A stretch of 36,536 bases of DNA from NCBI GenBank assembly GCA_028748685.1, contig JAJRDU010000071.1:1-36536 (forward strand), given 5' to 3'. Below, one piece after another: positions 10,118 to 30,769 of this stretch (position 1 is the first letter of the stretch; every line of letters begins with the position of its first letter). A program made the position numbers and the translations under genes. The DNA is from Methylococcaceae bacterium. Its GTDB lineage: Bacteria; Pseudomonadota; Gammaproteobacteria; Methylococcales; Methylomonadaceae. The notes under the pieces were generated by a model that did no database searches, was not told the DNA's origin, and worked only from the letters and a program-made list of their open reading frames with translations.

Positions 10118-10199
10118 GGTTATTCCATTAAAAGCAGTGACAGCCTAGCAGTTGCGAATAAAGTCGGGGTGAGCTTAAAGTATCTAGAGAAAGAAAGGC

Positions 10200-10550
10200 T
10201 TAAACTTTGGGTTTTTTGTTGCTTAATGCTTTATAAGTGCCTTTGGGCATCATGTTGGCGATGGCATGACGTTGCACCTGAATAAAGCTATTTTCGGACA
10301 CTTCCAGTTTCACGAAATTATCATCCAGCTCCGCAACCTTGCCCAAGATGCCGCCGGTGGTAACTACTTCCGCGCCTTTGTTCAGCGCCGCCAGCATCTG
10401 TTTTTGTTCCTTGGTGCGCTTCGATTGCGGACGGATAAACAGAAAATAGAAAAATACCAGGATGCCCAATGGAAAGAGCATGCCTTCAAAACCGGGTTGT
10501 TGGGCGGCTGGTGCGGTTTGCGCGAACGCATCAGAGATCAAAAAACTCAT
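10200..10550 (-). CDS. yajC: Preprotein translocase accessory subunit YajC
   Basis: A 116-residue single-pass inner-membrane protein of the SecDF-YajC complex. The membrane helix is FPLGILVFFYFLFIRPQ, followed by the hallmark RPQSKRTKEQKQML and GGILGKVAELDDNFVKLEV cytoplasmic beta domain. GAGGA precedes the start ATG at 10550. Located immediately upstream of secD, the standard order. No tgt or queA is found upstream; psd is there instead. Confidence 0.95.
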   Translation of the reverse strand: MSFLISDAFAQTAPAAQQPGFEGMLFPLGILVFFYFLFIRPQSKRTKEQKQMLAALNKGAEVVTTGGILGKVAELDDNFVKLEVSENSFIQVQRHAIANMMPKGTYKALSNKKPKV

Positions 10551-10657
10551 CGTAATCCTCTATTTATTATCGTTATGTTGTCGGTTAAATCCGGCGACGA
10601 ACCGGAAAACCGGTGCATTATGCCACACTAGAAGTGCTTGGCGTATCCGGGTGTCAT

Positions 10658-11530
10658 TTACGCGGAAAATTCAGAGACACACCGACCTATCATTTCACCC
10701 AGTCTAACGGACTTTCCGGCCAGAAAACCCTCGCTCCACGCCACTCTGTCCTTGCCGAACAGCACAATGATGGTCGACCCCATATTGAAACGCCCCATCT
10801 CCTCGCCTTTTTCCAACACAGGCGCACTGTCGCGATATTGCCAGGTTCTGGTTTCACGAATCGTTGGCGGCGTCACCACACCGTGCCAGACGGTTTCGAC
10901 ACTGGAAACGAAGATCGCCCCGACCAGGATCAGCGCCATGGGCCCAGCTTCGGTATCAAAAATGCAAGCGACACGCTCATTGCGGGCGAACAGATTCGGC
11001 ACCGCACCGACGGTGGCGGCATTGACGCTGAACAAACGCCCCGGAATATGCACCATCTCTTTTAAAGTACCCGTCAGCGGCATGTGCAGACGGTGGTAAT
11101 CCTTGGGCGAGAGGTAAATGGTGGCAAATGAGCCGTTTTCAAAGGCCTTGGCGCGCACGGCGTCGCCACCCAGCAATTCCAATGCCGTGTAACCGTGCCC
11201 TTTGGCTTGAAAAATCCGGCCATCGCTGATAGCTCCGGCCTGACTGACCGCGCCATCGGCGGGACAAGCTATTGCATCGGCTGCGGTAGTGATCGGACGC
11301 GCGCCCTCTTTCAGTTCGCGGGTAAAAAATTGATTGAAGCTGGCGTAATGATCGATGTCCTCGTATTTCGCCTCGCTCATGTTGACACCGTACAAACGAA
11401 TGATCAGCCTGATAAACAGGTTTTTCCAAATTTTGTTTTCACAGTGTGTCAGTTTGGACATCCAATGTGAAAGCACGTGGTGAGGCAAAAGGTATTGCGG
11501 CAGGACGGTGAATATTTCTTTAAAGGTCAT
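10658..11530 (-). CDS. psd: Phosphatidylserine decarboxylase proenzyme
   Basis: Makes phosphatidylethanolamine from phosphatidylserine at the inner membrane. The enzyme self-cleaves to form a pyruvoyl group; the cleavage site here is MGST with S252, a conservative variant of the usual LGST. The other processing residues are visible: D92 in ACPADGAVSQ and H149 in YHRLHMP. The 290 residues fit the family. Its start overlaps the end of the upstream flhB-like gene by 11 bases, so the queF-flhB-like-psd genes are probably one transcript. Confidence 0.95.
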   Translation of the reverse strand: MTFKEIFTVLPQYLLPHHVLSHWMSKLTHCENKIWKNLFIRLIIRLYGVNMSEAKYEDIDHYASFNQFFTRELKEGARPITTAADAIACPADGAVSQAGAISDGRIFQAKGHGYTALELLGGDAVRAKAFENGSFATIYLSPKDYHRLHMPLTGTLKEMVHIPGRLFSVNAATVGAVPNLFARNERVACIFDTEAGPMALILVGAIFVSSVETVWHGVVTPPTIRETRTWQYRDSAPVLEKGEEMGRFNMGSTIIVLFGKDRVAWSEGFLAGKSVRLGEMIGRCVSEFSA

Positions 11531-11810
11531 GACTGGATTCAGGGGTTTTTCCGCTGATGAAATAAGCGAAAGCGATCACTTCGGCAACGGCAACATACAG
11601 TTCTTGGGGAATTTCGTCGCCCAACGGTACCTGCGCCAGAATGCGAGCCAACTCGGGTTCATTTTGCAGGGGAACGCCGTGTTTTTCGGCGATTGCCAGG
11701 ATTTGCTGAGCGGTAAAACCTTCTCCCTTGGCCGTGACTTTGGGAGCGTTCTTGCCGTCGTATTGCAGGGCGACGGCAATATCACTATTGTAAAAGGTTC
11801 TGCCGCTCAC
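11520..11810 (-). CDS. Free-standing FlhB/EscU C-terminal domain protein
   Basis: A 96-residue protein corresponding to the cytoplasmic domain of the flagellar/type III export switch protein FlhB without its membrane part. Recognisable features are the start YNSDIAVALQYDGKNAPKVTAKGEG, the IAEKHGVPLQNEPELARIL core and IPQELYVAVAEVIAFAYFIS. The autocleavage motif NPTH of true FlhB is not present before the PKVTAKG segment. Such short FlhB-like proteins (FhlX type) occur near flagellar or unrelated genes and can partly replace the FlhB domain. No flagellar gene is in this window; its role here is unclear. Confidence 0.85.
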   Translation of the reverse strand: MSGRTFYNSDIAVALQYDGKNAPKVTAKGEGFTAQQILAIAEKHGVPLQNEPELARILAQVPLGDEIPQELYVAVAEVIAFAYFISGKTPESSHDL

Positions 11811-11815
11811 GCCGT

Positions 11816-12205
11816 CTAAGGTAGATTAACCAATTCCGGCGCTTGCCAGTTTGGATTTCTATGCTCGGCGACCACGGTCGTGTAAATCCCGCCCCGCACA
11901 TTGAACTCGGCGCGCAAACGCATGAAGTTCGGAGAGATGGCGGCGACGATGTGATCGAGAATTTCGTTGGTCACGGCCTCGTGAAAAGCGCCGCGTTCGC
12001 GGAAGGTCCACATATACAGTTTCAGGGACTTTAACTCCACGCACAAATGGGCGGGAACATACTCTATCGTCAGTTTGGCAAAATCCGGTTGGCCGGTCAT
12101 CGGACACAGACAGGTAAATTCTGGAATATCGATCCGAATGGTGAAATCGCGCGCGGGCCTGGGGTTTTCGAAGGTGGTAAGGTCTATGCTGGGTTGGGTG
12201 CTCAT
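11816..12205 (-). CDS. queF: NADPH-dependent 7-cyano-7-deazaguanine reductase QueF
   Basis: Reduces preQ0 to preQ1 in queuosine biosynthesis. The 129 residues match the short (YkvM-type) QueF form. The nucleophilic cysteine is C34 in [12 protein letters not shown]; the NADPH-binding motif appears as [10 protein letters not shown], and [15 protein letters not shown] is the usual substrate-binding stretch. It is the first gene of the run leading to psd, separated from the flhB-like gene by five bases. Confidence 0.95.
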
Positions 12206-12640
12206 CAGTTCTCTATAAGCTTTTAAGGTAAAATTTTCAACAATTTATGGATGCTCAGGGAACTTCCGGCTTCAATCAATCCCCGATTTGCTCAACGCAT
12301 GATTTTTCGGGAAAATAATGCAAGTTCCCCGCTGATTGGGACGCATTTTACCAGCTATGACACTGGAAAAAACAAACTCTGAATATTCAATGACTTATAA
12401 ACCAGGACCAAACAGATAGGGAAAGCAATACCCGCTCTCTTTCCGGTAATATTCGCGTCAACCGAACAAATCCAGCGTCTTATCCGACAGCTACCACCGC
12501 AGTGGTTGGGCGTTATTGCGATTGCCATGTGCGCGGAAAATCTTAATCCATTCCTAATCAATCGGTAATCTAAGCTTAAGCAAGCCTAGCTAGAATTTTT
12601 CACAACTTAAACAATTTCCCAATTAAGAGGAGCTTTAAAC
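12206..12640. other. Intergenic region between divergent queF and the glycine-zipper gene
   Basis: About 435 bases without a credible gene. It should hold the promoters for both divergent genes. A small hairpin (ACCAC/GTGGT near 12494-12507) is the only structure noticed. The right end, before 12600, is AT-rich. A minus-strand open frame here has no homology I recognise. Confidence 0.5.
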
Positions 12641-12955
12641 ATGAGCAAAATGACAATAACCGTTATGACTGGTTTGTTGTTTTCATCCGTAGCCTTAGCC
12701 GATGGCCATGGTCACGGCCATCATAAACATCATGGCCACCACCACGACCATGTCCAAGTCGAGCGAGTGGTTCAATACGTGCCAGCACCAGCACCTGCGC
12801 CTCGTTACAACCGTTACGACCAACGTTCGACGCAAGGCTTGCTGGGCGGTGCGCTGGGTAGCGCGGTGGGTTACGAAATGAGCAAGGGCGATCCTTTGGG
12901 TGCCGGTTTAGGTGCCGCCGCTGGTGCATGGGTTGGTAACGGCATGGCTAGATGA
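12641..12955 (+). CDS. Secreted His-rich glycine-zipper protein
   Basis: A 104-residue exported protein. A signal peptide (about residues 1-20, ending VALA-DG) is followed by a histidine/glycine tract (DGHGHGHHKHHGHHHDHV, residues 21-38), a proline-alanine spacer and a C-terminal glycine-zipper segment (GLLGGALGSAVGYEMSKGDPLGAGLGAAAGAWVGNGMAR) of the 2TM/Rick-17kDa type. GGAG lies about 9 bases before the ATG. The His cluster suggests binding of Ni, Zn or Cu; the glycine zipper suggests membrane insertion. It is a single gene ending in an intrinsic terminator. Precise function is unknown. Confidence 0.8.
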   Translation: MSKMTITVMTGLLFSSVALADGHGHGHHKHHGHHHDHVQVERVVQYVPAPAPAPRYNRYDQRSTQGLLGGALGSAVGYEMSKGDPLGAGLGAAAGAWVGNGMAR

Positions 12956-12985
12956 GCCGCGTCGAGAAGACTTGAATACAACACT

Positions 12986-13007
12986 GCCGGGTAAAACCGG
13001 CTTTTTT
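12986..13007 (+). terminator. Intrinsic terminator of the glycine-zipper gene
   Basis: GCCGG (12986-12990), loop GTAAAA, CCGGC (12997-13001), then six T. It lies 30 bases past the stop codon. Confidence 0.85.
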
Positions 13008-13280
13008 ATGCCCATTACCTTGCAAACTCGTACGGTCGCAAGAGCGCAAAGTGTTGAAATCAACGATAACGCTCGGCTCTTTTCAACCAATGCTTGTTGC
13101 TGAATTACTGTCCTTCGGATTAGTTCGGAACATATATATTTGATTCAAAATGTATTTTTTCCATGGCACGAGAATAGCTTTCTTTCCTTCGGAAATCTAA
13201 CCTTAAGAGGAACAAGATTCGCGAATCTATTTGAGCTTGGTTTTGTTGTAGAACCAACGCGCTGCAATCAAACCTTAACG

Positions 13281-13322
13281 GCTTCCGAGCCTCTACCGTG
13301 CTACGGGTAGAGGCTCGGAAGC
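13281..13322. repeat. Perfect 17-bp stem hairpin downstream of peroxidase 1
   Basis: Arms at 13281-13297 and 13306-13322 are perfectly complementary over 17 bases around an 8-base loop. There is no T-tract on either strand. It is 150 bases past the stop of the minus-strand peroxidase gene and could stabilise or end its transcript, or be a dispersed repeat. The rest of 13008-13471 holds no supported gene; the sequence at about 13371-13395 resembles the leader hairpin block found upstream of paralog A. Confidence 0.6.
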
Positions 13323-13471
13323 AGCCTATATCTCGATTGCAATTCAAACGACCGACACCCAATTGCCGATTTTCCAGCTCTCGCCACCTCAATCATCTCA
13401 GCAATTACTCCTTAAGCCAAATCCTTGCAGGGATCCGCTAAAGCGAAGGCAGCAAAAACTTAGTGTGCGGG

Positions 13472-15682
13472 TTACGGCAGCAACTGCTTTTCAAAAGGCA
13501 ATAAAGGTTGGGGGCTGCCGTCCGCTCCAACCGCTTCAACCGTTAAGTAATCGTCCTTAGCCAAAACATTGGAAATGGAATTGCCGCTACTAACCGCCTG
13601 ACTATTGCCAGTATGTCCGTGGGGTATCTTGATTTCCGGATGGTCGAACGGCGCTTTCTGGTAACGCACCCTGTCATCGGTCAACGTTTTCAAAAACGCC
13701 ACCAAGTCCGCCCGGTTTTGCTCCGAAAACTGCAAGTTAGCCAATTGAAACACCCGAGTAATTTGCTTGGCATCGTTCATGAAATTACCGCCTCGCGTGT
13801 AAAACTCGATCACCTGTTCCAAGGTCGCCATGCCGCCGTTATGCATATACGGCCCCGTCAACTCGATGTTACGCAAGGAAGGCGTCTTGAAACTGGCTCT
13901 GACCTCGGCGTCCATTTTTCGGGTATTGGGATTGTTCAGTTCCGCCAAGGCTGCCGCTGTAGTCGGCAGAAACGCGTGGCTTGCCGCGGATAAATAGCAG
14001 TTTTCCGTACTCTGTGGCTGAGGCATGACGCCGTCCGCGAGTGTAAAAAGGCTGGTTGCCAAATACGGTGGATTGAAATTCAGCGCGAACTCTTCCTGAA
14101 AATCGCAGGCTCTAACCTTGGCCACATCGGCATCCAACACCCCGCTAGCGTTTCCGGCCAAATGTTGCAGATACTGTTTGCTGAACGATAAGGGATTACC
14201 GAAGTCGTCGACACCACCCAGGCCTATATCCACGGACTCCGCCGCGACACCGGTGGAGGCAAAGCCGGTATCGTAAAAGGCGGTAATCGGCGTATCGCGC
14301 GGCAACAGCCGAACGCGTTCCACTACGTTTTTACTGGCGCTGATACTAAAACCCGGTTCGCCAAAAGTCTCCGGATGTGTCTGCGCGATGGCGGCATTGG
14401 CATTGACCGAAGCGGCGGTAAAATTAGGCCCCAAATGGCAAAGATGGCATTGGTTCAATCTAAACTGCTCCAATCCTCTCAATTCCGCCGCTGTCAAATC
14501 GATGGGTTGATTTTTGGCATCACGGGCGCTTTTATCGAAAGGCGATTCGTCGGAAATCAGGGTACTTTCGTAAAGCTGTAACGCCAATCCGAAAAACATC
14601 GAAAAGTTGGCTTCCATCTGGTTGTAAGGATCGTTGGCGGGCCCGCCGAACTCGCCCAAACGCAGATAAGACCAATACTTGTCGCTAAACGCCTGCCTGA
14701 TCAAGGCCGCGTATGTGGTATTGAGCCCTGGTTTTAAAACGCCTGGACTGCTGAAGCTCAGGCCGCCCAGAACGCTGTCACTCCAATGTACCTTTTGGTT
14801 TTCCAGCGGCCGGCGCAGCAGCAGTTTGCGGCCTATGTCACTCAGGGTGCGTTTGTTGCAGCTCATCTCGGTGGTATTGAGTGGCGGCCCCATGGCCAGG
14901 GAAGCCAGCGAGGAGTTGATCAATTGCAAGCGCTGCTTTTGAACGCTGCGTGCATTCTTTTTGACCCACACCCCCGCATTGGGATCGCGGTCGCCCCAGG
15001 GACTGCTGCCGTTGAACACGTTGTTGGCGCGGCCGTCCCAAAAACTGCGATGATTGAAGATGGCATTAATCACGCTGGGCGCGTTGCGCGGAGTGACACG
15101 CCGGGTACCGATGCCGCCGACATGAAACAAGCTATCGGCGCTCCTTGCGCAGTTATCGACACTGTTACTCAAACGACTGACCGATTTGAACTCCCCGCCG
15201 AACGTGCCGGACGACCCGACCACATTGTCGGTATCGTAAATAACCGGCGAAAATTCCTCGAGAGGTTTTTGACGTTGATGCAAGGGAAAATCGAGAGCAC
15301 CGAGCGTATGATTAGGACCCAATGAGGCCCCATCGGCGGCGGCACTAAATGCCTTGTCGACGACGAGGGATGATTGCCCGCCAGGAGAGACCTGATTCGT
15401 CACCCTGCCATCGGCGCCGGCATGAAAATGGCAAGAGCCGCAAGCCATGCCATCGCTGCCGACACTGGTATCCCAGAACAAGGCCTTGCCCAGCGCGATG
15501 GCGGCGGCTTTATTGACAACGATGGGACTAGGCCCGTCCAATAGCCCCGGCACTTCCGGCACCGGCAAATTTTTGAGGCTGATGGGCATGGGGCCACCGG
15601 CTGCGGAAAACGCGGAACCAGCATAAAAAAACGCCGCCCCCAATAATGTCAAAACCCATGGGATATGACGGAAACCTGTCAT
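13472..15682 (-). CDS. Long di-heme cytochrome c peroxidase, MauG/CcpA family (copy 1)
   Basis: A 736-residue exported di-heme c protein. After a signal peptide (cleavage near residue 27) heme motif 1 is CGSCH (81-85) and heme motif 2 is CHLCH (412-416). The C-terminal part has the family signature [27 protein letters not shown], where M is a candidate distal heme ligand. Classical CcpA and MauG are about 330-370 residues; the extra length lies mainly between the hemes and resembles the surface-associated peroxidase SACCP of methanotrophs. It follows sorting-signal protein A on the same strand but a terminator lies between them. Nearly the same protein is encoded at 28537-30747. Whether it consumes peroxide or oxidises a protein partner cannot be read from sequence. 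Confidence 0.88.
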   Translation of the reverse strand: MTGFRHIPWVLTLLGAAFFYAGSAFSAAGGPMPISLKNLPVPEVPGLLDGPSPIVVNKAAAIALGKALFWDTSVGSDGMACGSCHFHAGADGRVTNQVSPGGQSSLVVDKAFSAAADGASLGPNHTLGALDFPLHQRQKPLEEFSPVIYDTDNVVGSSGTFGGEFKSVSRLSNSVDNCARSADSLFHVGGIGTRRVTPRNAPSVINAIFNHRSFWDGRANNVFNGSSPWGDRDPNAGVWVKKNARSVQKQRLQLINSSLASLAMGPPLNTTEMSCNKRTLSDIGRKLLLRRPLENQKVHWSDSVLGGLSFSSPGVLKPGLNTTYAALIRQAFSDKYWSYLRLGEFGGPANDPYNQMEANFSMFFGLALQLYESTLISDESPFDKSARDAKNQPIDLTAAELRGLEQFRLNQCHLCHLGPNFTAASVNANAAIAQTHPETFGEPGFSISASKNVVERVRLLPRDTPITAFYDTGFASTGVAAESVDIGLGGVDDFGNPLSFSKQYLQHLAGNASGVLDADVAKVRACDFQEEFALNFNPPYLATSLFTLADGVMPQPQSTENCYLSAASHAFLPTTAAALAELNNPNTRKMDAEVRASFKTPSLRNIELTGPYMHNGGMATLEQVIEFYTRGGNFMNDAKQITRVFQLANLQFSEQNRADLVAFLKTLTDDRVRYQKAPFDHPEIKIPHGHTGNSQAVSSGNSISNVLAKDDYLTVEAVGADGSPQPLLPFEKQLLP

Positions 15683-17519: not shown

Positions 17520-18127
17520 GCAGTCAGTAAAATCTGACGCGGCAAATCCGGTGGGTTGGGGATTAGTATATTAAGGCTCAAAGGGCCGGCTCATGAAGCG
17601 GCAAAACGTAACCAATCGTTCCAAATATCCAGCCACATAACACTCATTCACCAAATCTTGCCGTTTATAATGCCAACCAAGGTCGGATACCGCAGTTTTC
17701 GACGAATCACGTTTCGATAGTCCCCAAGCATAAAAAGGCATACCGTCATAATTTAACTGCGTTATTTAACGCTACCCATCGTTTAATTTGCGGCATTCGA
17801 CGACATTTACCCCCCCATTGATTGCAAAACTTAAGAGGCTGATCCAGACGCGCCAGAATCAGCCTTAATACCGCACCTAGAATCAACCGGAAAAGCGACG
17901 CACAAATATCAAAGCGCGCCTGATTTACGATCCCCCATTTAAATCAAGCGGATGAGCGAATAAATTACTTACAGTACTTAAAACCTCACCCCAAAAAATG
18001 GACTGATTCAAGATTCTTATCGCAACCCAAGACCGGGACAAATTCGGTCACAATCGCAATACCCAGCCATGGCATGATTAGTGCTTCCTTGGTTGACCAA
18101 GCTTAAGCCAACCACATTGCCACCTTG
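17520..18127. other. Intergenic region before the tlpA-like gene
   Basis: About 600 bases with no supported gene, between the divergent gene A leader and the plus-strand cluster. It must hold the promoter for the tlpA-DUF4266-DUF3570 genes; no clear boxes, repeats or RNA structure were recognised. Confidence 0.5.
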
Positions 18128-18604
18128 ATGAAAAAATTCATTTTTTTAACGTTTTTTCTGCTGAACAGCGGCACCTGCATCGCCGTGGAAGAAGGCCAAA
18201 ACACCCCAAGCTGTCCGGCGCTAACAAAAGACGCTGACCTTGGCCTCTACCAAGGAAAAGTCGTGCTGGTCGATTTTTGGGCAACCTGGTGCCCGCCCTG
18301 CATCAAGTCAATGCCGTTCTTCAACGGCCTGCGCAACGAACTGGCGGGCAGCGGCTTTGAAATTCTCGCCATCAACGTAGACGAAGAAAACGACGCAGCC
18401 CGGCAATTTCTGCAAACGCATCCCGTCGATTACAAAATCGCCTTCGACCCCGGCGCCGAGTGCCCGAAAATTTTCGAGGTAAAGGCCATGCCTTCCTCTT
18501 ATTTGCTGGATAAATCAGGCAAAGTCAGAAAAATTTTCCTGGGCTATCGCGACAGCGACCAAGCCTCAATCAAATCGGAAATCAAGGCCTTATTGGCAGA
18601 GTAA
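18128..18604 (+). CDS. TlpA/ResA-like periplasmic thioredoxin
   Basis: A 158-residue exported thioredoxin-fold protein. It has a short signal peptide (FIFLTFFLLNSGTCIA) and the active site WCPPC (C55, C58) in VDFWATWCPPCIKSMPF, the TlpA/ResA form, followed by the cis-proline segment KAMPSSYLLDKSGK. It probably reduces disulfides of periplasmic or surface proteins or of apo-cytochromes c. A TTG one codon earlier is possible, but ATG 18128 is more likely; the ribosome site is weak. It is the first gene of a cluster with DUF4266 and DUF3570, a recurring combination. Confidence 0.88.
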   Translation: MKKFIFLTFFLLNSGTCIAVEEGQNTPSCPALTKDADLGLYQGKVVLVDFWATWCPPCIKSMPFFNGLRNELAGSGFEILAINVDEENDAARQFLQTHPVDYKIAFDPGAECPKIFEVKAMPSSYLLDKSGKVRKIFLGYRDSDQASIKSEIKALLAE

Positions 18605-18612
18605 ACACCAGA

Positions 18613-18843
18613 ATGGCCAGCCCCAACATGCAAAACCCACCCCCCTGGTTCTACCTCCTAGGACTCATGGTCCTCCAAGCTTGCAGCAACGTTTCGCCCT
18701 GGGAAAGAGGCAATTTAGCCAAGCCGGAAATGGCGATCACGCCCTATCCCAACCTGGAGCATTTCCGCGACCATATTTTCTCCAGCAAGGAAGCCTCGCA
18801 GGGCGGACACGGAGGCACTGGAGGCGGTTGTGGCTGCAATTAA
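18613..18843 (+). CDS. DUF4266 lipoprotein
   Basis: A 76-residue lipoprotein. The lipobox is LQAC with lipidated cysteine at residue 24. The remainder carries the DUF4266 signature WERGNLAKPEMA and the end HIFSSKEASQGGHGGTGGGCGCN, a glycine-rich tail with two closely spaced cysteines (CGC) that could bind metal or be handled by the thioredoxin next door. It starts 8 bases after the tlpA-like stop and overlaps the next gene by 14 bases. Function of the family is not known; it is found with DUF3570. Confidence 0.88.
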   Translation: MASPNMQNPPPWFYLLGLMVLQACSNVSPWERGNLAKPEMAITPYPNLEHFRDHIFSSKEASQGGHGGTGGGCGCN

Positions 18844-21800
18844 TAAGGATATGAGCAAGGCACTGGCGGCCCTGACCACCGCGGCACTCAGCCTGCCGGG
18901 CATGGACGCTCAAGCCGGTGTGCCCAGCGCCCAGGCCAAGGGCAATGTCCAATACGGTTATTATCAGGAAAGCGGCGACCGGATGAAGGTGGAGGTCTAT
19001 CATGGCGACTTCACGCTGCCTGTGAGCGACAGGCTGGAATTCAGCTTCAACGTCGACCGTGACACTTACAGCGGTGCGACGCCGGCGTTCAGCATTCCGG
19101 AGACCATGACCAATCAGGTTCGTTATAGTGGCTCTCAAACCGGAACGGTGGATGTGGTAAGTGCCGCCTCCGGCGGAGTCACCGCGCAGGGACTGACGAC
19201 ATTGGGCGGACTCAACACCTTCAAGGAGGTGAACGACGGCATCGGCGCTCAAGGCCACAAAAATGATCAGGCCTTCGCCAGCATCCAAGCTCAAAAAGAC
19301 GCCGAGGAAAAAATCTGGCGTGACGCAAATCCCACAAGTTTTGCCCCGACTATTTCAGGCCCGACCACCCTCACATTTGGTAAATATATAGATATGGAGG
19401 CTGGCGTCTACGGCAAATCCAACATGAACGTAGGAGTCGACTGTCATTTATTCAGCTGCTACCGGGAGTCTGGTTTTGTAATTGGCACGGTATACGATCC
19501 TGTCGAACAGTCTACCCATGTGCACAGGGGAGGGGCTAAAACCCCTCTGGATCGGAGTTTGGAATATCACAAGGATTCCAGTGGCATCTACATCCGAGCT
19601 CTCAATGGCGAGGCATTCAACCTGCTCAACATGGACTTCAACATAGACTTAGATAAAACCCCTGGAACCGGACCCGATGATTATTGGGAAATCCTGGGTT
19701 TCAATAATGCGGTGAACCCCAACTTGGTCAGCGGCGACGGTAAGAACTACAATACCGGCGTCGCCTATCAACAAGTATTCAATACCCATACCGGCATTCT
19801 GGCGCTGGATCGTGCCTTCAGCAACATCAACGCCTTCTGGATTCACTATCACGGATATCTCCGGGACGTGGGCCATGCGCCAGGTAATGATTTTAGTGTT
19901 GAAATTGACGATATCAACCTCACCAGCGCCAACTTCCCCGGCGGCACCCCCCCCGTACAACAAGCGTGGATGACCCAGTATGCCAGTTTCCGTACCGCGC
20001 TGGATAAAAAATACGAATCGCAGTCAAAACTGGTACAAGCCCAGGTAGCAGCGCAAACCAGACAGGCGATGATAGAGCTGTACCGCAACTTTTTGAACAA
20101 AGCCGTACCGGCCAATACCCGCATCAAGCAAACCTTTCAGCAACAGCCGTTGGAAACCCGCACCCAACCGGTATTCGGCGCCAAGTATTATTTCGATGAC
20201 GCCACCCTGGCCCTATCGGGCGGACAATCGAACGAACCGGATTTCCGCTCCACCTTCGGTTCCGCGAACCTTTCCCAGGAGCTGAACAACAAACTCACCA
20301 CCATTTCCGCAGGCTACAGCTACACAAGTAACGAAATCAGCCGCAACACAGGTGCGCACAGCACCAGCCATCATGACTCCGACCCAAAGCATAACCCCAC
20401 GAATTATCCGGAATTGCACGAAAACAGCGACGCAAACGCTTTCAATCTAGGACTGTCTCAGGTATTGAACAAAAATGCGTTGCTGCAACTGTCAGCCAAC
20501 TACACCCGGCAGAGCGGTTACCTCAGCAATCCTTACAAATACGTTTACGTCCGCGGAGAAATCACCGCCGAGGAATATTACGCCCTATACCAAGCGACCT
20601 CGCCCGGCGACATCAACTGGAACGACATCACCCATCTCGAAGTGGTCGGCCTGGAATTATTCCGCGAAGCGCGCCCGAATCTGCGCAACCAGTTTTCATT
20701 CTCCACTCGCCTTAATCAGTATCTGCCGGCCATGGACGCGGCGCTACACATGGATTACCGTTATTATCTGGACGACTGGGGCGTCGATTCCCACACCATG
20801 GAACTGAAGTGGCTGCAAAAATTGCCCTGGGGACTGACCATTACCCCCAACCTGCGCTATTACTCGCAATCTAAAGCTGATTTTTTCGCGCCCTATTTCC
20901 TGGCACCGCGCGCCGACGGCCATTATTCCAGCGATTTCCGCCTCTCGGGCTATGGCGCCTTGAGCAGCGGCCTGACCGTTTCCAAGCAATTCAATCGCGG
21001 CATACGCCTGGAACTGGGCATGGAATATTACAGCCACCAGGGTAATTTGAAGCTCGGTGGCGGCGGCGAGAGCGATTACGCGGATTTCAGTTACTGGATG
21101 ACGCATGCCGGCCTCAGCATAGACCTGTCCGCCCCCGGCAATATTCTCGGCAGCGGCGCCGGCGACCACCGTCACCATCACGGTGCTCCCGCCCCGGCCG
21201 GCGTGATGTTCAGCCATATGATGAACGAAGCCGACGGCATCATGGCCGGCTACCGCTATATGTACGCCAATCAAACCGGCGACCTATGGCATGGCTCCTC
21301 GGCGATAAGCGATGCAGCCGTGCTGGGCGAGGCTTGCGGAGCGGCAAGTTGCACCGACCGGCCTACGGCGATGAGCATGCAGATGCACATGCTCGACCTG
21401 ATGTACGCCCCCACCGACTGGCTGAATCTGATGCTGATGCCGCAAGTCGCCGACATGGAAATGACACTTGCCCCGCTGGCCGGCGCAACCGGGGAAAGCC
21501 TGCATGGCGGCAGCCATCAAACCCATGATCTGGGCGATACCTACGCCGCCGCCCTGCTCAAGGTGTTCGACCACCAAGGCCATCACATGCATGTCAGCTT
21601 GGGCGTCAGCGCTCCGACCGGCAGCGTGGATGAAACATTGAGCGGCCAGGACAACGTTTTACAAGACTACGGCATGCAACTCGGCAGCGGCACCTGGGAC
21701 TTCAAACCCAGCGTCACCTATACAGGGCATTGGGATGACTGGTCCTGGGGCGCGCAGTTGAGCGGCACCAAGCGCCTGGAAAATCGCAACAAGAGCGGCT

Positions 21801-22135
21801 ACGCGCTGGGCGACCAGTTTCAGGCCACGGCCTGGGGTGGTTACAGCATCAGCCAATGGCTTTCGGCTTCGATACGCGGCGTGTACACCGAACAAGGCAA
21901 GATTCGCGGCGAATTCACCAGCAACCACGCCACAAGCGCGCCGGTCGACTATACCTCCAACTACGGCGGAAAATTCTGGGATGCCGGCTTCGGCCTCAAT
22001 CTGGCCGTGCCGGATGGCGCCTTTGCTGGACATAATTTCAGCGTCGAATGGCTGCAACCCGTCGCCGACAAATTCAACGGCTATCAGCTCGAACGCGAGG
22101 GTAGCTTGTTTGCCACCTGGAACTACCAATTTTGA
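18830..22135 (+). CDS. DUF3570 outer-membrane protein with inserted HxH domain and a second beta-barrel
   Basis: A 1101-residue protein built from three parts. Residues about 1-170 and 375-770 are DUF3570, an outer-membrane beta-barrel family (start AALTTAALSLPGMDAQA; aromatic-rich alternating strands). Residues about 175-366 are an inserted domain homologous to the standalone protein at 22565: both keep HVH (H230, H232), EYH (H247) and FWIxY (W337). After a histidine linker (GDHRHHHG, 778-785) residues about 790-1101 form another barrel of the type GVMxSHMMNEADGIMAGYRYMY, found in outer-membrane transporter proteins, with a methionine/histidine-rich stretch. The protein ends in aromatic Phe, as barrels do. 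GTG 18830 has GGAG at proper spacing; ATG 18851 is an alternative with poor spacing. Translationally coupled to DUF4266. Confidence 0.8.
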   Translation: MAAINKDMSKALAALTTAALSLPGMDAQAGVPSAQAKGNVQYGYYQESGDRMKVEVYHGDFTLPVSDRLEFSFNVDRDTYSGATPAFSIPETMTNQVRYSGSQTGTVDVVSAASGGVTAQGLTTLGGLNTFKEVNDGIGAQGHKNDQAFASIQAQKDAEEKIWRDANPTSFAPTISGPTTLTFGKYIDMEAGVYGKSNMNVGVDCHLFSCYRESGFVIGTVYDPVEQSTHVHRGGAKTPLDRSLEYHKDSSGIYIRALNGEAFNLLNMDFNIDLDKTPGTGPDDYWEILGFNNAVNPNLVSGDGKNYNTGVAYQQVFNTHTGILALDRAFSNINAFWIHYHGYLRDVGHAPGNDFSVEIDDINLTSANFPGGTPPVQQAWMTQYASFRTALDKKYESQSKLVQAQVAAQTRQAMIELYRNFLNKAVPANTRIKQTFQQQPLETRTQPVFGAKYYFDDATLALSGGQSNEPDFRSTFGSANLSQELNNKLTTISAGYSYTSNEISRNTGAHSTSHHDSDPKHNPTNYPELHENSDANAFNLGLSQVLNKNALLQLSANYTRQSGYLSNPYKYVYVRGEITAEEYYALYQATSPGDINWNDITHLEVVGLELFREARPNLRNQFSFSTRLNQYLPAMDAALHMDYRYYLDDWGVDSHTMELKWLQKLPWGLTITPNLRYYSQSKADFFAPYFLAPRADGHYSSDFRLSGYGALSSGLTVSKQFNRGIRLELGMEYYSHQGNLKLGGGGESDYADFSYWMTHAGLSIDLSAPGNILGSGAGDHRHHHGAPAPAGVMFSHMMNEADGIMAGYRYMYANQTGDLWHGSSAISDAAVLGEACGAASCTDRPTAMSMQMHMLDLMYAPTDWLNLMLMPQVADMEMTLAPLAGATGESLHGGSHQTHDLGDTYAAALLKVFDHQGHHMHVSLGVSAPTGSVDETLSGQDNVLQDYGMQLGSGTWDFKPSVTYTGHWDDWSWGAQLSGTKRLENRNKSGYALGDQFQATAWGGYSISQWLSASIRGVYTEQGKIRGEFTSNHATSAPVDYTSNYGGKFWDAGFGLNLAVPDGAFAGHNFSVEWLQPVADKFNGYQLEREGSLFATWNYQF

Positions 22136-22564: not shown

Positions 22565-23383
22565 ATGCCAAGTTTTAGAAAAAAAATCTTGCCCGCCCTA
22601 CTGCTAACAGGTGGCGCGACCTTCGCCGGCCAGGCATCTGCCTACACGGTGACCAACACGATGACCTTCCTTACCGGCACCACCCTCCCTGGCGGCGTGT
22701 ACGGCCATGCAAACACTGCGGCGGCCACTGGTACTTATGCGGAAGATGGCATCATCGTTGGGGTCGTAGGCGATCCAACCGATATAAACGCTCACGTCCA
22801 CAGTGCCGGACCGTCAACCAACAGAGCGCTTGAGTATCACACAGACAGTAGCGGCATGTATTTTCGTAAAGCCGACGGCTCCGCTTTCAGCTTGGTTTCC
22901 TTGGATTACGACCTCGGCTCTAGCACGGAAGGCGGCAATTTTGCGATTTACGGTTTTAAAAACGCCGTCAACGACCCTATGTTGAGCGCGGCCGGCTCTC
23001 CGTCCCCGACCGACCCTGAGGGTGGCCTTATTCCTTACGTGGCTTCAAAATTGATTGCCAATGACGGTATCGGCGGAACCCCTAAAGCCCCTGTTTATCG
23101 CACCCTGAACGTAGCGGAAGCGGGAAATGCTTTTGAAAACATCAGTGCTTTCTGGATCACTTATCAGGGCTTCAACCATAGTCCAACGACCAACTATAAA
23201 GCGCTTGATCCTGTTACGGGCGCGCCTCTATATCCTGATTTCAACATCCACGTAGACAACGTCAAGCTTGGCGCTGCTGTTACCCCTCCGCCCGCCACTG
23301 TACCCGTACCGGGTGCGGTTTGGCTGTTTGGCACGGGCTTGGCAGGACTGATGGCCAGCAGACGGAAAAAAGCGACAGCCTAA
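22565..23383 (+). CDS. Secreted sorting-signal protein, standalone version of the DUF3570 inserted domain
   Basis: A 272-residue protein with a signal peptide (cleavage after ASA, residue 26) and a C-terminal exosortase-type signal VPVPGAVWLFGTGLAGL followed by SRRKKATA. The mature domain matches residues 175-366 of the DUF3570 fusion upstream: INAHVHSAG (H77, H79), RALEYHTDSSGMYFRKADG (H92), GFKNAVN and NISAFWITY (W197). The conserved HxH...H plus tryptophan could be a metal site; this is inference. It precedes peroxidase 3 by 190 bases, matching the A/peroxidase 1 and B/peroxidase 2 pairs, although it is not a close paralog of A or B. Confidence 0.83.
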   Translation: MPSFRKKILPALLLTGGATFAGQASAYTVTNTMTFLTGTTLPGGVYGHANTAAATGTYAEDGIIVGVVGDPTDINAHVHSAGPSTNRALEYHTDSSGMYFRKADGSAFSLVSLDYDLGSSTEGGNFAIYGFKNAVNDPMLSAAGSPSPTDPEGGLIPYVASKLIANDGIGGTPKAPVYRTLNVAEAGNAFENISAFWITYQGFNHSPTTNYKALDPVTGAPLYPDFNIHVDNVKLGAAVTPPPATVPVPGAVWLFGTGLAGLMASRRKKATA

Positions 23384-23575: not shown

Positions 23576-25888
23576 ATGCGAAGTATCCACAAATTTTTGC
23601 CGGCGGGCCTGATGCTATGTTCTCTTACAGCGTTCGCGCACGGCCCGGCAACGACGTCTTTGATCGGCGTACCCATACCACCGGTTCCCGGTCTCCTGGA
23701 CGGACCCGATCCTATCATTATTGACAAGGATAAGGCCATCGCGCTGGGCAAGGCCTTGTTCTGGGATACCAACGTCGGCAGCGACGGCCAGGCTTGCGGC
23801 TCTTGCCACTTCAGCGCCGGTGCCGATGGACGCATCAAAAATCAGATTGATCCGGGGACAAAAAGCCGCCTGCCCAGCGGACAAACCTTCGATACCTTGG
23901 GCTCCGGCACGGGTGGACCGAACCACACCTTAACCCTTAGTGACTTTCCGCTACATCAAACTAAGGACCCTTTCAACAAAGCCAGCGGCGTATTACGCAC
24001 CACCGACGATGTCATCTCTTCGGCGGGAACCTTCAGCGGCCAGTTCACCGGCGCCTCAAGATTCAGCGGAGCGGATGACCAATGCGGACGAAGCGCGGAC
24101 CCGATTCACAATATCCACGGCGTCGGCACCCGCCGCGTGGCGGTCAGAAACACCCCAACCGTGATCAACGCCGTCTTCAACCACCGGAATTTTTGGGACG
24201 GCCGGGCCAATAATGTCTTCAACGGCAGCAGTATCTGGGGTGATCGCGACCCCAACGCAGGCGTCTGGGTAAAAGTCGACGCCCGCTCTGCTGTGAAACA
24301 GAAATTGCATCTGGAAAACGCCGCACTGGCATCACAGGCGGTCGGGCCAGGCTTAAACGACCTGGAAATGAGCTGTCAGAAGCGCGGCTGGCCGGATGTT
24401 GGCAGAAAACTATTACTGCGCCCGCCCTTGCAGAATCAGAAAGTCCATTATGACGACAGCGTTTTCGCACCGTTGAATCTGGCTTTGAGCACCCCCGGCA
24501 ATTTACGGAACGGCCTCAACACCACCTATAAAAATCTGATCGTCCAGGCCTTCAATCCCAAATATTGGTCTTACACGCGGATAGGTCAATTCGGCGGTCC
24601 GACGGGTCAGACGCCTTACAATCAGATGGAAGCCAACTTTTCCATGTTTTTCGGCTTGGCTATCCAAATGTACGAATCCACCTTGGTATCCGACCAGGCG
24701 CCCATCGACACAAGCCGCAGAGACGCGGACTTGATCCCCATCGACCTGAGTCCAGAAGCGCAACAGGGTTTCCTTGATTTCAAAGGAATTCATTGCAATA
24801 TTTGCCATGCCGGCCCCGTAACGACGACAGCAGCGATCATAGCCAACGCCACCTTGGTCACACCAACTCCGGGTAAAACCTATGGTCCGTCACACAGCCC
24901 TATTCCGTTCGGAAGAGGCGCCATGGGTGCGGAAAGTATCCGTCCAGGCATAGGCGGCGTAGGCGACGCAGGGCAAGCCTTCATCACCCCAGCCGCCAAT
25001 GTGGTAAACCGCGATCAAACAACAACAGCTGCCTACAGGCTCACGGATATGGGATTTGCCAATACCGCCATCGCCGATGAGAATGCGGATCCTGGCCTAG
25101 GCGGCACCGACGACTTCGGCAACCCCTTATCCTTTACCTCGCAATATATTCAGTATCTGCTGGATAACCCTGCGGGCATCCTTGATGGTCCAGTCACCAA
25201 GGTCAAGGCGTGCGACTTTGCGAATGCCTTAGGGAACATGGCAACTGTCGTCCCCCAAACTTTCACCCAAGCGGACGGACTCATCCAAGATGGCAGCAAG
25301 GAGGGCATTGTACGCGACGAAAACTGTATCAATGATAATTGGGACCCGTCGCACAAGAATTACCTCACCGGGAAAGCAGCCGCTAAAGCCCAGGCCTACA
25401 TTCCCACCGCCGCCGCTGCGAAGGCCAACCTGAACGGAGCGAAAATGGCATACATGACCCAGGGCGTTTTCAAAATTCCCAGCTTGCGCAACATTGAGCT
25501 AACCGGCCCCTATATGCATAACGGCAGCATCGCCACCTTGGAGCAGGTTATCGAGTCTTATGCACGCGGTGGCAATTTTGATAGCATTCATAGGATTAAA
25601 GTGCTTAGTCAAGCAACAACGGGTGCTCTCAATGCCCCAACAGATGTCGCCAATATGGTTGCGTTCCTGAAATCACTCACCGATGAGCGAGTCCGCAACC
25701 AAAGCGCTCCGTTCGACCATCCGGAAATCACCATTGCCAATGGTCACATAGGCGATGAATCAGGGGTTGAGAGCGGCAATCCGCTAAACCCAGCTTTGGC
25801 CAAGGAGGAGTATCTGGTCATCCCGGCTGTCGGCGCCCATGGCGCGGACAAACCGCTCCCACGCTTCGACGAGCGGCTGGCGCCATAA
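23576..25888 (+). CDS. Long di-heme cytochrome c peroxidase, MauG/CcpA family (copy 3, divergent)
   Basis: A 770-residue exported di-heme c protein, clearly related to the copies at 13472 and 28537 but more divergent. Signal peptide residues 1-21. Heme motif 1 is CGSCH (74-78), heme motif 2 is CNICH (407-411); the C-terminal part has [27 protein letters not shown]. Shared landmarks include [19 protein letters not shown] and [12 protein letters not shown]...[15 protein letters not shown] longer insert after heme 2 (about residues 415-465) is absent from the other copies. GAGGT lies six bases before ATG 23576. It lies between two genes for exosortase-sorted proteins; either could be a substrate, which is inference. 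Confidence 0.88.
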
Positions 25889-25933: not shown

Positions 25934-25971
25934 GAACCCAAGGCCCGCAAGCACTTACCAGCCTTGGGTTC
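25934..25971 (+). terminator. Hairpin after peroxidase 3
   Basis: GAACCCAAGGC (25934-25944) and GCCTTGGGTTC (25961-25971) form a perfect 11-bp stem with a 16-base loop, 45 bases past the peroxidase stop and 31 before the next start. A T-run (CTTTTT) follows only 12 bases later. Confidence 0.55.
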
Positions 25972-26002
25972 TAAAGAATCAACTTTTTCCTGGATTACCC
26001 AT

Positions 26003-26758
26003 ATGAATACTTTTAAACCATGCCATAAATTCATCCCCGTGTTATTCGCTCTTGGCCCGTCCCTGCTATTGGCCTCCTCGGCGCAAGCGTCTTCCTCCTT
26101 CGACAGCAGCGCGGCACTCAGCTATACCATCAACAGCATCACTAACAACGATAATGCCGGCTCGCTGGCGGGACTGGCGATTACCGGTTCTTTCGATTTG
26201 GCGGCCGCGCCGGATTACTCCGTCGATTTGAGCGGCGACGGTGCCGTCTTTGGCAACAACCCCAGCACCGGCAACGTTGCGATAAACCCCATACTGACTG
26301 GAACCGCTTTCAGCCATTCTTTTTCGGTGAGCGGCAGCGCCAGCGCCGGTAGCGCAAATACATCGCAACTGGGTTTATTCGGACTGAATTTCAAAAATAC
26401 CGGCAGCGAAAACTATACGATCAGCCTAAGCCTGAACTACCAGCTTAATTCGACGGTTGGCGGACAACTTGCCGACAGTTCGGTCGCCCTGGACTTCTTC
26501 AACGAAACATCCTCATTCACCGGTTCGAAGCGCGTCGACGCCTCGGTGTTTTCCTTGGAAAATGCGGCATTAAACGCCACATCCGACATATTCAGTTTCA
26601 CCCTGGCCCCTGGCACAAACGAAACCCTTTATGCCGACGTTAATATCACCGGCAATCTAAGCGCATCTGCAGTTCCGCTGCCCGCCAGTTTCTGGTTATT
26701 GTTTGCCGGCCTGTCAGGCATTGTCTCCGTCGGCAAGGGTCGGCGCCAACAGGCCTAA
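26003..26758 (+). CDS. Secreted protein with VPLPA-type sorting signal
   Basis: A 251-residue protein with a signal peptide ending SSAQA and a C-terminal VPLPASFWLLFAGLSGIVSVGKGRRQQA, the VPLPA-CTERM variant of the exosortase signal. The mature part is Ser/Asn/Gly-rich and beta-strand-like (SLSLNYQLNSTVGG, TLAPGTNETLYADVNITG) without a domain I recognise; no cysteine after the signal. I begin at ATG 26003; the open frame extends 13 codons upstream but through the intergenic hairpin region. It is unrelated in its middle to paralogs A-E and to the protein at 22565. Confidence 0.8.
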   Translation: MNTFKPCHKFIPVLFALGPSLLLASSAQASSSFDSSAALSYTINSITNNDNAGSLAGLAITGSFDLAAAPDYSVDLSGDGAVFGNNPSTGNVAINPILTGTAFSHSFSVSGSASAGSANTSQLGLFGLNFKNTGSENYTISLSLNYQLNSTVGGQLADSSVALDFFNETSSFTGSKRVDASVFSLENAALNATSDIFSFTLAPGTNETLYADVNITGNLSASAVPLPASFWLLFAGLSGIVSVGKGRRQQA

Positions 26759-28536: not shown

Positions 28537-30747
28537 CTACGGCACCAACAGCTTTTCAAAAGGCAATAAAGGTAAGGTTCTGCCCTCCGCCCCAACCGCT
28601 TCAATGGTGAGGTAATCGTCTTTGGCCAAGGCATTGCCAATAGGATTACCGCCATCAACCGCCTGACTATTGCCGACCTGGCCGTTGGGTATCTTGATTT
28701 CCGGATGATCAAACGGCGCTTTCTGGTAACGTACCCTGTCGTCGGTCAACGTTTTCAGGAACGCCACCAGATCCGCCCGCTTTTGCTCGGAGAACTGCAA
28801 TTTCCCCAATTGAAATACCCGGGTAACCTGCTTGGCATCGTTCATGAAGTTACCGCCCCGCGTATAGAATTGGATCACCTGCTCCAGTGTCGCCATGCTG
28901 CCGTTATGCATATAAGGGCCCGTCAATTCGATATTGCGCAAGGATGGCGTCTTGAAACTCGCATTGACCTCGGCATCCATTTTCCGGGTATTGGGATTGT
29001 TCAACTCCGCCAAGGCAGCCGAGACAGTCGGCAGAAAAGCGTCGGTAGCAGCCGGTAAATAGCAATTTTCCGTATTCTGTGGCTGAGGCTGAATATCGTC
29101 ATTCGCCGTAAAGAAGCTGGGCGTCGGATAAGGCAGACTTAGATTGACCGCAAAGGGTTGCTGAAAATCGCAGGCGCGAACTTTGGGCACATCGGCATCC
29201 AGCACCCCGCCGGCATTGCCGGCCAGATGTTGCAGATATTGCTTGCTGAACGAAAGCGGATTGCCGAAATCGTCAACGCCACCCAAGCCTATATCAGAGG
29301 ACTCCGCCGCGACGCCAGTGGAGGCAAAGCCGGTATCGTAGAACGCGGTAATCGGCGTATCCCGCGGCAACAGCGGAATACGTTCGACCACATTAGTGGT
29401 CGCGCTGATATAAAAACCCGGCTCGCCAAACGTCTCGGGGTGTGTCTGGGCAACGGCGGCATTGGCATTGACCGAAGCAGCGGTAAAATTGGGCCCTAAA
29501 TGGCAAAGATGGCATTGGTTCGCTCTAAACTGCTCCAGCCCTCTCAATTCCGCCACAGTCAAATCAATGGGCTGGTTATTGGCATCACGGGCGCTTTTAT
29601 CGAAGGGCGATTCGTCGGAAATCAACGTGCTTTCATAAAGCTGTAGCGCCAAGCCGAAAAACATCGAAAAATTGGCTTCCATTTGATTATAAGGATCGTT
29701 CGCCGGTCCGCCGAATTCGCCCAAACGCAGATAAGACCAATATTTATCGCTGAATGCCTGCCTGATCAAGGCCGAATAAGTGGTATTGAGGCCGGGTTTT
29801 AAAGTCCCTGGACTGCTGAAACTCAGGCCGCCCAGGACACTGTCGCTCCAATGTACCTTCTGGCTTTCCAGTGGCCGGCGTTGCAGCAATTTGCGGCCTA
29901 TGTCGCTCAGGGTGCGTTTGTTACAGCCCATCTCGGTGGTGTTCAAGGGCGGCCCCATGGCCAGGGAAGCCAGCGAGGAATTGATCAATTGCAAGCGCTG
30001 TTTTTGGACGCTGCGGGCATTCTTCTTGACCCAGACCCCAGCATTGGCATCGCGGTCGCCCCAGGGACTGCTGCCGTTGAACACGTTGTTGGCGCGGCCG
30101 TCCCAAAAGCTACGGTGATTGAAGATGGCATTGATGACGCTGGGCGCGTTGCGCGGAGTGACACGCCGGGTACCGGTGGCGCCGACATGAAACAGGCTGT
30201 CCGCACTCCTTGCGCAGTTATCGACACTGCTGCCCAGCCGGCTGACCGATTTGAATTCACCGCTGAAGGTGCCGGCCGACCCGACCACGTTATCGCTATC
30301 GTAAATGACCGGCGAATTGTGTTGAAGCGGATTCTGGCGTTGATGCAAGGGGAAATCGATCAAACCCAGGGTATGGTTAGGGCCTAATGACGCGCCGTCG
30401 ACGGCGGCACCAAAGGTTTTGTTAGCGACTGGGGATGATTGTCCGCCGGGCGAAACCTGATTCGTCACCCTGCCATCGGCGCCGGCATGAAAATGACAGG
30501 AGCCGCAAGCCATACCGTCGCTGCCGACGTTGGTATCCCAGAACAAGGCCTTGCCCAGTGCAATGGCGGCGGTTTTATTGACGACGATGGGACTAGCCCC
30601 GTCCAGAAGCCCAGGCACTTCCGGTACCGGCAAATTTTTGAGGCTGATGGGCATGGGACCGCCAGCAGCGGAAAACACGGTGCCGGCGTAAAAAAACGCC
30701 GCCCCCGATAATGTCAAAACCCATGGGATATGACGGAAACCTGTCAT
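28537..30747 (-). CDS. Long di-heme cytochrome c peroxidase, MauG/CcpA family (copy 2)
   Basis: A 736-residue exported di-heme c protein nearly identical along its length to copy 1 at 13472, with the same hemes CGSCH (81-85) and CHLCH (412-416) and the same C-terminal [27 protein letters not shown]. The open frame reaches 30894, but the first 49 codons run through a MITE-like element; I start at ATG 30747 because GGAG is just upstream and the protein then begins MTGFRHIPW exactly like copy 1. It follows sorting-signal gene B. Differences from copy 1 cluster after heme 2 (about residues 535-590), suggesting a less constrained surface region. Confidence 0.88.
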   Translation of the reverse strand: MTGFRHIPWVLTLSGAAFFYAGTVFSAAGGPMPISLKNLPVPEVPGLLDGASPIVVNKTAAIALGKALFWDTNVGSDGMACGSCHFHAGADGRVTNQVSPGGQSSPVANKTFGAAVDGASLGPNHTLGLIDFPLHQRQNPLQHNSPVIYDSDNVVGSAGTFSGEFKSVSRLGSSVDNCARSADSLFHVGATGTRRVTPRNAPSVINAIFNHRSFWDGRANNVFNGSSPWGDRDANAGVWVKKNARSVQKQRLQLINSSLASLAMGPPLNTTEMGCNKRTLSDIGRKLLQRRPLESQKVHWSDSVLGGLSFSSPGTLKPGLNTTYSALIRQAFSDKYWSYLRLGEFGGPANDPYNQMEANFSMFFGLALQLYESTLISDESPFDKSARDANNQPIDLTVAELRGLEQFRANQCHLCHLGPNFTAASVNANAAVAQTHPETFGEPGFYISATTNVVERIPLLPRDTPITAFYDTGFASTGVAAESSDIGLGGVDDFGNPLSFSKQYLQHLAGNAGGVLDADVPKVRACDFQQPFAVNLSLPYPTPSFFTANDDIQPQPQNTENCYLPAATDAFLPTVSAALAELNNPNTRKMDAEVNASFKTPSLRNIELTGPYMHNGSMATLEQVIQFYTRGGNFMNDAKQVTRVFQLGKLQFSEQKRADLVAFLKTLTDDRVRYQKAPFDHPEIKIPNGQVGNSQAVDGGNPIGNALAKDDYLTIEAVGAEGRTLPLLPFEKLLVP

Positions 30748-30769
30748 GCTTGAACTCCAAGAAAATCGG

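Follow-up and report, generated by a model that had tools for sequence, protein, structure and literature searches.

Analysis of a 36,536-nucleotide contig of a Methylococcaceae bacterium (the window, meaning the whole stretch analysed) revealed a gene (18830..22135, plus strand) for a predicted double-barrel outer-membrane protein of 1101 amino acids (aa). Its DUF3570 barrel is interrupted by a domain that also occurs as a separate protein with a PEP-CTERM tail, encoded downstream (22565..23383, plus strand). Sequence comparisons show repeated homogenisation of the insert and the neighbouring free copy, with long shared tracts in four loci or more. In several species, one of the two copies has apparently replaced the other, suggesting that the insert-bearing barrel and the free protein work as a matched pair, perhaps gathering copper. 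The locus brings the flavinylation cassette together with a Met-rich channel and a proposed capture domain at the surface, in one genetically linked set that could be tested in a culturable genus, and it is an example of gene conversion acting repeatedly on a barrel loop and a protein that is secreted separately. No description of this architecture was found in a literature search of titles and abstract openings, and PMC8238504 was the single paper in which a full-text search found DUF3570.

The frame is open over 1101 codons, from a GTG at 18830 to the stop at 22133-22135; this GTG is the mechanically assigned first start, and an alternative ATG lies at 18851 (residue 8). The product matches DUF3570 (PF12094) well over the curated cut-off (5e-89; 299.5 bits versus 25) and over the whole barrel, in two stretches that cover positions 2-107 and 111-426 of the 427 of the profile, with approximately 957 bases interrupting the family at a single profile point (∼107). 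The initial annotation of an uninterrupted frame with a DUF3570 barrel split around a domain is thereby upheld. All on the plus strand, the N-terminal part of the barrel spans 18866..19165 and contains, at residues 81-84 (19070..19081), the motif SGAT, which fits the published ApbE flavinylation motif [S/T]GA[S/T]. A first predicted stalk helix follows (residues 132-166, 19223..19327; model residues 110-144), then the inserted jelly-roll-like domain (residues 176-366, 19355..19927), a second predicted stalk helix (residues 375-425, 19952..20104; model residues 353-403) and the C-terminal part of the barrel (20123..21097). A His-rich linker (21134..21199) leads to the second barrel (21200..22132), which is rich in Met and His.

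The AlphaFold2 model of the product, whose numbering begins at 18896, has a predicted local distance difference test (pLDDT) value of 75.9 and a predicted template modelling (pTM) score of 0.50, because of which the relative placement of the parts is unsure. By hand count of its strand table, the DUF3570 part has 16 strands and, after the low-confidence His-rich linker, 12 more follow; the inserted beta domain lies between DUF3570 strands 3 and 4, flanked by the two long helices. Long loops occur mostly on the side of the insert and short turns on the opposite side, which by the usual rule would place the insert outside the cell and the linker in the periplasm. In a Foldseek search with the full model the best E-values belong to TonB-dependent receptors, which superpose poorly (root mean square deviation of about 18-20 Å). 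The best-superposed rows are the COG4313 channel 4rl8 (target template modelling score, TMt, 0.70) and FapF 5o68 (TMt 0.71), over about 310 columns. The Foldseek table gives no model range, and these two matches were assigned to the second barrel on the basis of the aligned length. A second outer-membrane barrel after the linker is thus predicted, as is the overall shape of two barrels and a stalk. In Pfam the second barrel has no match up to E 10, PF13557 included.

The homology of the inserted and free domains is clear at the sequence level (BLASTP 8e-28; 69 of 216 columns identical, 32%), as the initial annotation had it, and a scan of the genome of the window with the inserted piece recovers the insert itself and the 22565 gene, the latter in two pieces (3.3e-18 and 0.237). 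The free protein has a signal-peptide-like start and a tail that exceeds the cut-offs of PF07589 (22.8 versus 20.7 bits) and TIGR02595 (18.7 versus 16 bits). An XrtA exosortase is encoded in the same genome (342.4 bits, cut-off 208), in agreement with the suggested sorting by exosortase. The motifs said to be shared are present as HxH (residues 230 and 232), YHxD (246-249) and FWIHY (336-340). Across 55 aligned copies (25 inserted and 30 free), H230, H232, D249, G252 and A335 are identical in all, and W337 (54/55), H247 (53/55) and H339 (48/55) are nearly so. The domain of the free protein is modelled as a jelly roll (pLDDT 84.4), for which Foldseek returned no match at E≤0.001. Comparison with VIA, in which a best Z of 7-8 is typical for models without a clear match, gave the gingipain domain K2 (Z 10.6), BtuJ2 (10.4), a putative carbohydrate-binding module (9.6) and CBM29 (9.3). 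Profile searches with the inserted domain alone yielded no match in Pfam up to E 10, no chain among PDB sequences at E≤10 and none in 298 other genomes of the phylum, as judged from at most about ten scored candidates per genome. Nothing useful emerged from the viral models searched, and the repeats around the locus were not striking.

In order to describe the distribution of this architecture, 200 relatives including the genome of the window were considered, 130 of which have a match to the 18830 product. Neighbourhoods were compared in 41 loci (the window and 40 loci from 39 genomes), drawn from the upper part of the list neither at random nor strictly in order; Fisher tests on these counts ignore relatedness. 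The insert is present in the barrel of 25 loci and absent from that of 16. A free copy occurs within 2.4 kilobases (kb) of the barrel in 23 of the 25 insert loci, as against a single one of the insertless loci (L056). The barrel frame and its nearest free copy are 0.3-2.0 kb apart in these 23 loci, one of which (L043) is counted on the basis of a free copy with weak similarity (78.5 bits, 23% identity). Contig ends truncate both of the insert loci with no free copy nearby, L050 and L057; a different contig of the L050 genome bears both a MauG-like gene and a free copy at its end (L100). A domain search in which at most 15 candidates per genome were scored found 27 positive relatives out of 200, 25 with the inserted form, 26 with the free form and 24 with both. 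The genomes with a single form are G029 (78% complete; inserted only) and G075 and G145 (free only).

At the level of the class, DUF3570 was found in 71 of 274 genomes, that of the window included. The frame of the window is the longest among them (1138 codons from stop to stop; the next have 920 and 904), and no other DUF3570 frame listed for these genomes has profile stretches more than about 60 bases apart. The insertion is therefore not a general property of DUF3570 proteins. A further scan of genome contigs gave 13 loci, 11 in genomes already covered and two new ones, L085 (the metagenome-assembled genome (MAG) Ga0077536) and L089 (Methylobacter KS41). The genera named among them are Methylomonas, Methylocaldum, Methylobacter and Methylicorpusculum, and 12 of the 13 named loci come from methanotroph genera. 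The architecture is thus conserved and, in these searches, confined to one lineage and one further MAG. In the latter, the genes follow one another on one strand as free domain (9812-10570), TlpA open frame (10571-11098), DUF4266 open frame (11076-11312), barrel with insert (11176-14466, by first start) and ApbE (14471-15391, by first start). The insert and the free copy of this MAG share 55% identity over 192 columns, and a MauG-like frame was not found in 20.5 kb.

Some variants of the arrangement were also observed. In L037-L039 one barrel has three free copies around it, a divergent pair upstream and a single copy downstream. In L057 (G029:C414, 13460-19477, minus strand) the barrel frame has at least 2005 codons, with two domain copies between long helical-looking stretches; the nearest relative of the second copy is a free protein from a different strain (L055). 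In L098 (G073:C150, 1-4856, minus strand), from the same genome as L059, the domain lies inside a large DUF4347/cadherin-like repeat protein.

The history of the insert was examined by comparing a tree of the barrel backbone (the part after the insert) with a tree of the domain. In the backbone tree, the 25 insert rows fall together with five insertless rows in one clade, with three changes in all, so that the simplest history would consist of one gain and two losses of the insert. The domain tree is at odds with simple descent, since the inserted copies do not form one clade (approximately unbiased test, p 1e-39) and well-supported branches force at least eight changes between inserted and free labels. 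The insert and free copy of the same locus pair with good support in L042, L045 and L049 and occur in common groups in L040/41, L044-48 and L052/53; they lie apart in L036-39, L043, L055, L058-60 and the window. The insert and the free copy of the window each group with those of L036-L039.

A test for conversion was applied to the window and to eight of the 23 loci with both forms, selected for the grouping of insert with free copy in the tree. At variable sites of the DNA, the longest runs in common were 38 in L052, 30 in L048, 28 in L042 and 20 in L040, and 9-13 in the other four tested loci; six cross-genome controls gave 3-10. As three of these six controls fell below 0.05, the p-values are poorly calibrated, and run length and identity at four-fold sites were relied on instead. 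Four-fold-site identity reaches 85% in L042, 72% in L040, 70% in L052 and 65% in L048, and is 22-57% in other own pairs. Means between loci are 31-34% below 65% aa identity and 43-50% at 65-90%, the highest single between-locus value being 65.2%, so that L048 is not above every such pair. By the same standard, L041, L044, L049 and L053 are weak cases. The long shared tracts and the four-fold identities are of the kind left by gene conversion or fresh recapture. The pair of the window, with 33% aa and 27% four-fold identity, is old. The capture proposed in the initial annotation is in consequence well supported and more dynamic than had been suggested, combining one backbone clade with polyphyletic inserts and long shared tracts in at least four loci. 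As for its direction, a transfer from the free protein to the barrel would fit the genomes with only a free copy (G075 and G145).

Upstream of the barrel lie a TlpA/ResA-like thioredoxin gene (18125..18604, plus strand, start codon assigned mechanically; WCPPC; Pfam Redoxin 1.4e-23, AhpC-TSA and Thioredoxin) and a gene for a small DUF4266 protein (18613..18843, plus strand; PF14086 3.4e-23) with a CxC at its end and a 14-nt overlap with the annotated barrel frame. Homologues of the DUF4266 protein occur in 39 of the 41 loci and of the thioredoxin in 34. Judged by their sequences, the thioredoxin, the CxC protein and the DUF3570 barrel together constitute the published ApbE-flavinylation cassette. 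ApbE has been reported to flavinylate a DUF3570 protein at [S/T]GA[S/T], the motif having been tested in the DUF3570 protein of C. luteolum, and clusters of DsbD, ApbE, thioredoxin, DUF4266 and DUF3570 have been described, their function being left uncertain (PMC8238504, eLife 2021). The loci studied here resemble those systems in having the same families side by side, in keeping the motif and, in some loci, in having ApbE near the barrel (15 of 41, within the 11-20 kb fetched). In the genome of the window, ApbE (PF02424) matches fall on two contigs other than that of the window. The published flavinylated family has two motifs, whereas a single one occurs in all 23 insert-bearing barrels with a complete N-terminus; two are found in seven of the 16 insertless barrels. 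The second barrel, the stalked insert and the paired PEP-CTERM protein are additional here, and are not mentioned in the available portions of that paper. Multi-barrel outer-membrane proteins as such are known (Solan et al. 2021 PNAS, as cited in PMC8592465), and the GfcD/YjbH case is described as including a 12-stranded barrel of the FapF family (PMC8592465). The likeness lies in two predicted barrels per chain, one of them 12-stranded; what differs here is the first barrel, of the DUF3570 family, together with the surface head inserted into it and the accompanying redox cassette.

The second barrel is conserved in a manner that bears on its possible substrate. Thirteen of its 16 Met positions are kept at ≥90% in 40 rows, compared with none of five in the first barrel, and ten Met and three His residues are identical in all 40. 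It aligns with 4rl8 of the COG4313/Phenol_MetA_deg (PF13557) channels, from which its Met/His set and its fusion distinguish it, and only a distant relative from Ruegeria matches PF13557 (32 bits, cut-off 22). Plasmid relatives were searched with eight records per search, and three of four from Ruegeria and two of three from Methylocystis were examined. The Met set is largely present in the Ruegeria and Methylosinus relatives and not in those of Methylocystis. A stand-alone Ruegeria relative has cueR, a heavy-metal P-type ATPase and a multicopper oxidase within about 20 kb, and a second one has a multicopper oxidase nearby. Since the Met set is missing from the two Methylocystis relatives and their neighbours are different genes, the argument for copper from gene context comes from Ruegeria alone. 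The conserved Met set and these Ruegeria neighbours modestly favour copper over iron, with a feoB gene beside a Methylosinus relative to be kept in mind. Copper is important to methanotrophs (PMC3912023). Among the same relatives, that on a plasmid of Methylosinus sp. C49 (L079, 8588-10804) is fused to a different barrel (PF13505), and those in Methylocystis plasmids (L080 and L081) are annotated 'alpha-amylase', probably a misnomer.

Taken together, the sequences show a flavinylation cassette, a fused Met/His-rich barrel, and a loop with two helices and a domain also present as a neighbouring PEP-CTERM protein. Tentatively, and with somewhat less than even confidence, these parts may form an outer-membrane redox and metal-uptake device, most likely for copper, with a stalked capture head and a free partner. 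Electrons would pass from the thioredoxin through the DUF4266 protein to flavin mononucleotide (FMN) on the DUF3570 barrel. The latter would reduce the metal, most likely Cu(II) to Cu(I), and the second barrel, lined with Met and His, would let it into the periplasm, where the His-rich linker would be located. The stalked inserted domain could act as a head that captures ligand on the outside, and the free protein, either fixed in the surface matrix or released from it, might capture the same ligand farther out and then hand it over or dock on the head. Gene conversion would keep head and free protein alike in some species, and would not have done so recently in the strain of the window. We infer the electron route, the metal, the ligand, the direction of transport and the docking.

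Support for such a device comes from the cassette with its flavinylation motif and nearby or distant ApbE genes, from the pairing and homogenisation of insert and free copy, from the presence of both forms in 24 of the 27 positive genomes and from the gene order in Ga0077536. The resemblance of the domain to carbohydrate-binding modules and to BtuJ is in line with a capture head, and its invariant (H230, H232, D249) and near-invariant (H247, W337, H339) residues with a role for a metal. BtuJ (DUF4465), one of the vitamin-B12 scavengers of Bacteroides, is a surface protein that captures for an outer-membrane barrel and is not known to be fused to it. The resemblance is one of jelly rolls (Z 10.4 over 149 residues, 11% identity) and gives no reason to expect the same ligand.

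Several observations weigh against this device. The free protein of the window reads WIT, with Thr in place of the WxH histidine, and is without the Cys pair of the domain, and no conversion tract is evident between it and the insert (longest run 4, p 0.90). Also, the tree does not place the L085 insert as sister to the free copy of that locus, the jelly-roll matches of the domain in VIA are mostly carbohydrate binders, and the lumen-facing position of the second-barrel Met residues is deduced from strand periodicity. As for the metal, no copper-specific gene was recognised in the window or among the scanned neighbours, the third Ruegeria record has no copper gene in the stretch viewed, and the relative of Methylosinus sp. 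C49 lies beside feoB and a gene for a PepSY protein, which points to iron. Finally, L089 has the cassette, ApbE and the insert, and within its 20.5 kb both the free domain and a MauG-like gene are missing. The reverse is seen in G145, where one contig carries the free copy together with a MauG-like gene, and another the insertless barrel, the cassette and ApbE. From L085, L089 and G145 the MauG-like gene seems to accompany the free protein rather than the insert.

Synteny and homogenisation fit docking, a shared ligand and mere proximity alike, and other explanations have to be weighed. The shared domain could be a carbohydrate-binding or adhesive module, the free PEP-CTERM protein being part of an exopolysaccharide or surface matrix to which the barrel head ties the outer membrane; matching would then keep both copies compatible with the same glycan or able to self-associate. 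This is possible, if on balance somewhat unlikely. The similarity of the domain model to the gingipain adhesin domain K2 and to CBM29/CBM22, its occurrence in the large DUF4347/cadherin-like surface protein of G073 and the known link of PEP-CTERM/exosortase systems to exopolysaccharide speak for it, whereas the residues invariant in all copies are His, Asp, Gly and Ala instead of a row of aromatics, the Foldseek matches are weak, and the flavinylation cassette and Met-rich barrel are left unexplained. Alternatively, the domain may be a mobile surface module, converted from proximity alone with neither docking nor a shared ligand needed. The short distance between insert and free copy favours conversion, the domain has a third, adhesin-like context and the pair is unmatched in many loci, that of the window included. 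We regard this as unlikely, given that insert and free copy remain paired across two family codes (f1 and f4), that the pairing is continuous with the cassette in Ga0077536, and that the same residues are kept in inserted and free forms.

The same device could instead serve iron, the flavin barrel acting as a surface ferric reductase and the second barrel admitting Fe(II). In this direction point the 25 DUF3570-type clusters with a VIT1 iron transporter reported in PMC8238504, where iron assimilation is suggested, and the feoB gene of Methylosinus. Against it stand the ten invariant Met of the second barrel, which suit Cu(I) rather than Fe(II), and the Ruegeria relative among copper genes; we regard iron as rather unlikely. 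An assembly or frameshift artefact that fused unrelated genes might be suspected, given that the window is one contig of a 3.68 Mb assembly, probably a MAG, of 337 contigs and 77% completeness. The chance of this is practically negligible. The same architecture is found again in independent assemblies, with full-length homologues at 49-68% identity, also in single-contig genomes such as G025, G169 and G017 and in named isolates, and an assembly fusion is therefore excluded.

Returning to copper, the neighbourhood invites comparison with MopE/CorA, methanotroph copper sites made of His and Trp-derived kynurenine and encoded beside a di-haem peroxidase gene (PMC3423442, PMC3912023). The MopE site comprises Trp130, His132 and His203, that is, Trp-x-His and a further His; the di-haem partners are CorB/SACCP (PMC3912023, PMC3423442), and a further pair is MbnP/MbnH (PMC3621798). 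Here too a surface protein of methanotrophs is encoded next to a di-haem peroxidase gene, and W337, H339 and H230/H232 may be compared with the MopE triad, which by analogy makes the conserved Trp and His candidate kynurenine/Cu(I) residues. In L085, unlike in the CorA/MopE case, no MauG-like gene accompanies the insert/free pair. Sequence comparison gave no support for a direct relation to MopE/CorA, the domain profile having no PDB sequence match even though 2VOV (MopE) and 4BZ4 (CorA) are in that database; both are also absent among the structure matches listed for the domain, which does not exclude a relation. No MbnP family appears among the NCBIfam matches of the barrel and the free protein. 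At its most specific, the copper reading would have a capture domain on a flavinylated double-barrel stalk and a matrix protein gathering copper as a pair kept alike by ongoing gene conversion, with the MauG-like neighbour oxidising W337 of the WxH motif to kynurenine in a Cu(I) site independent of CorA/MopE/MbnP; this version we hold to be very doubtful.

The di-haem MauG/CCP-like protein downstream of the free protein (23576..25888, plus strand; 770 aa, two CxxCH) belongs to the wider CCP_MauG family (PF03150, 9.4e-16) and scores 83.1 bits against MbnH (TIGR04039), under the cut-off of 362.85. Homologues occur in 23 of the 25 insert loci versus two of the 16 others; that of L049 (3200-5514, minus strand) is split over two frames. 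The third gene of the conserved downstream set (25964..26758, plus strand) encodes a small VPLPA/PEP-CTERM protein (TIGR03370, 20.5 bits, below the cut-off of 25.35), whose BLAST cluster has members in 22 insert loci and two other loci. It was considered as the obvious substrate of the MauG-like protein and rejected, as 15 aligned sequences have no invariant Trp or His outside the sorting tail. The window encodes three MauG/CCP-like di-haem proteins of 736-785 aa within 17 kb (13472-15682, 23576-25888 and 28537-30894), each near PEP-CTERM-type proteins. Also, a run of further proteins with VPxPGAV-type sorting tails occupies 31114-35754 (minus strand), with no Pfam match or with a tail match below the cut-off only.

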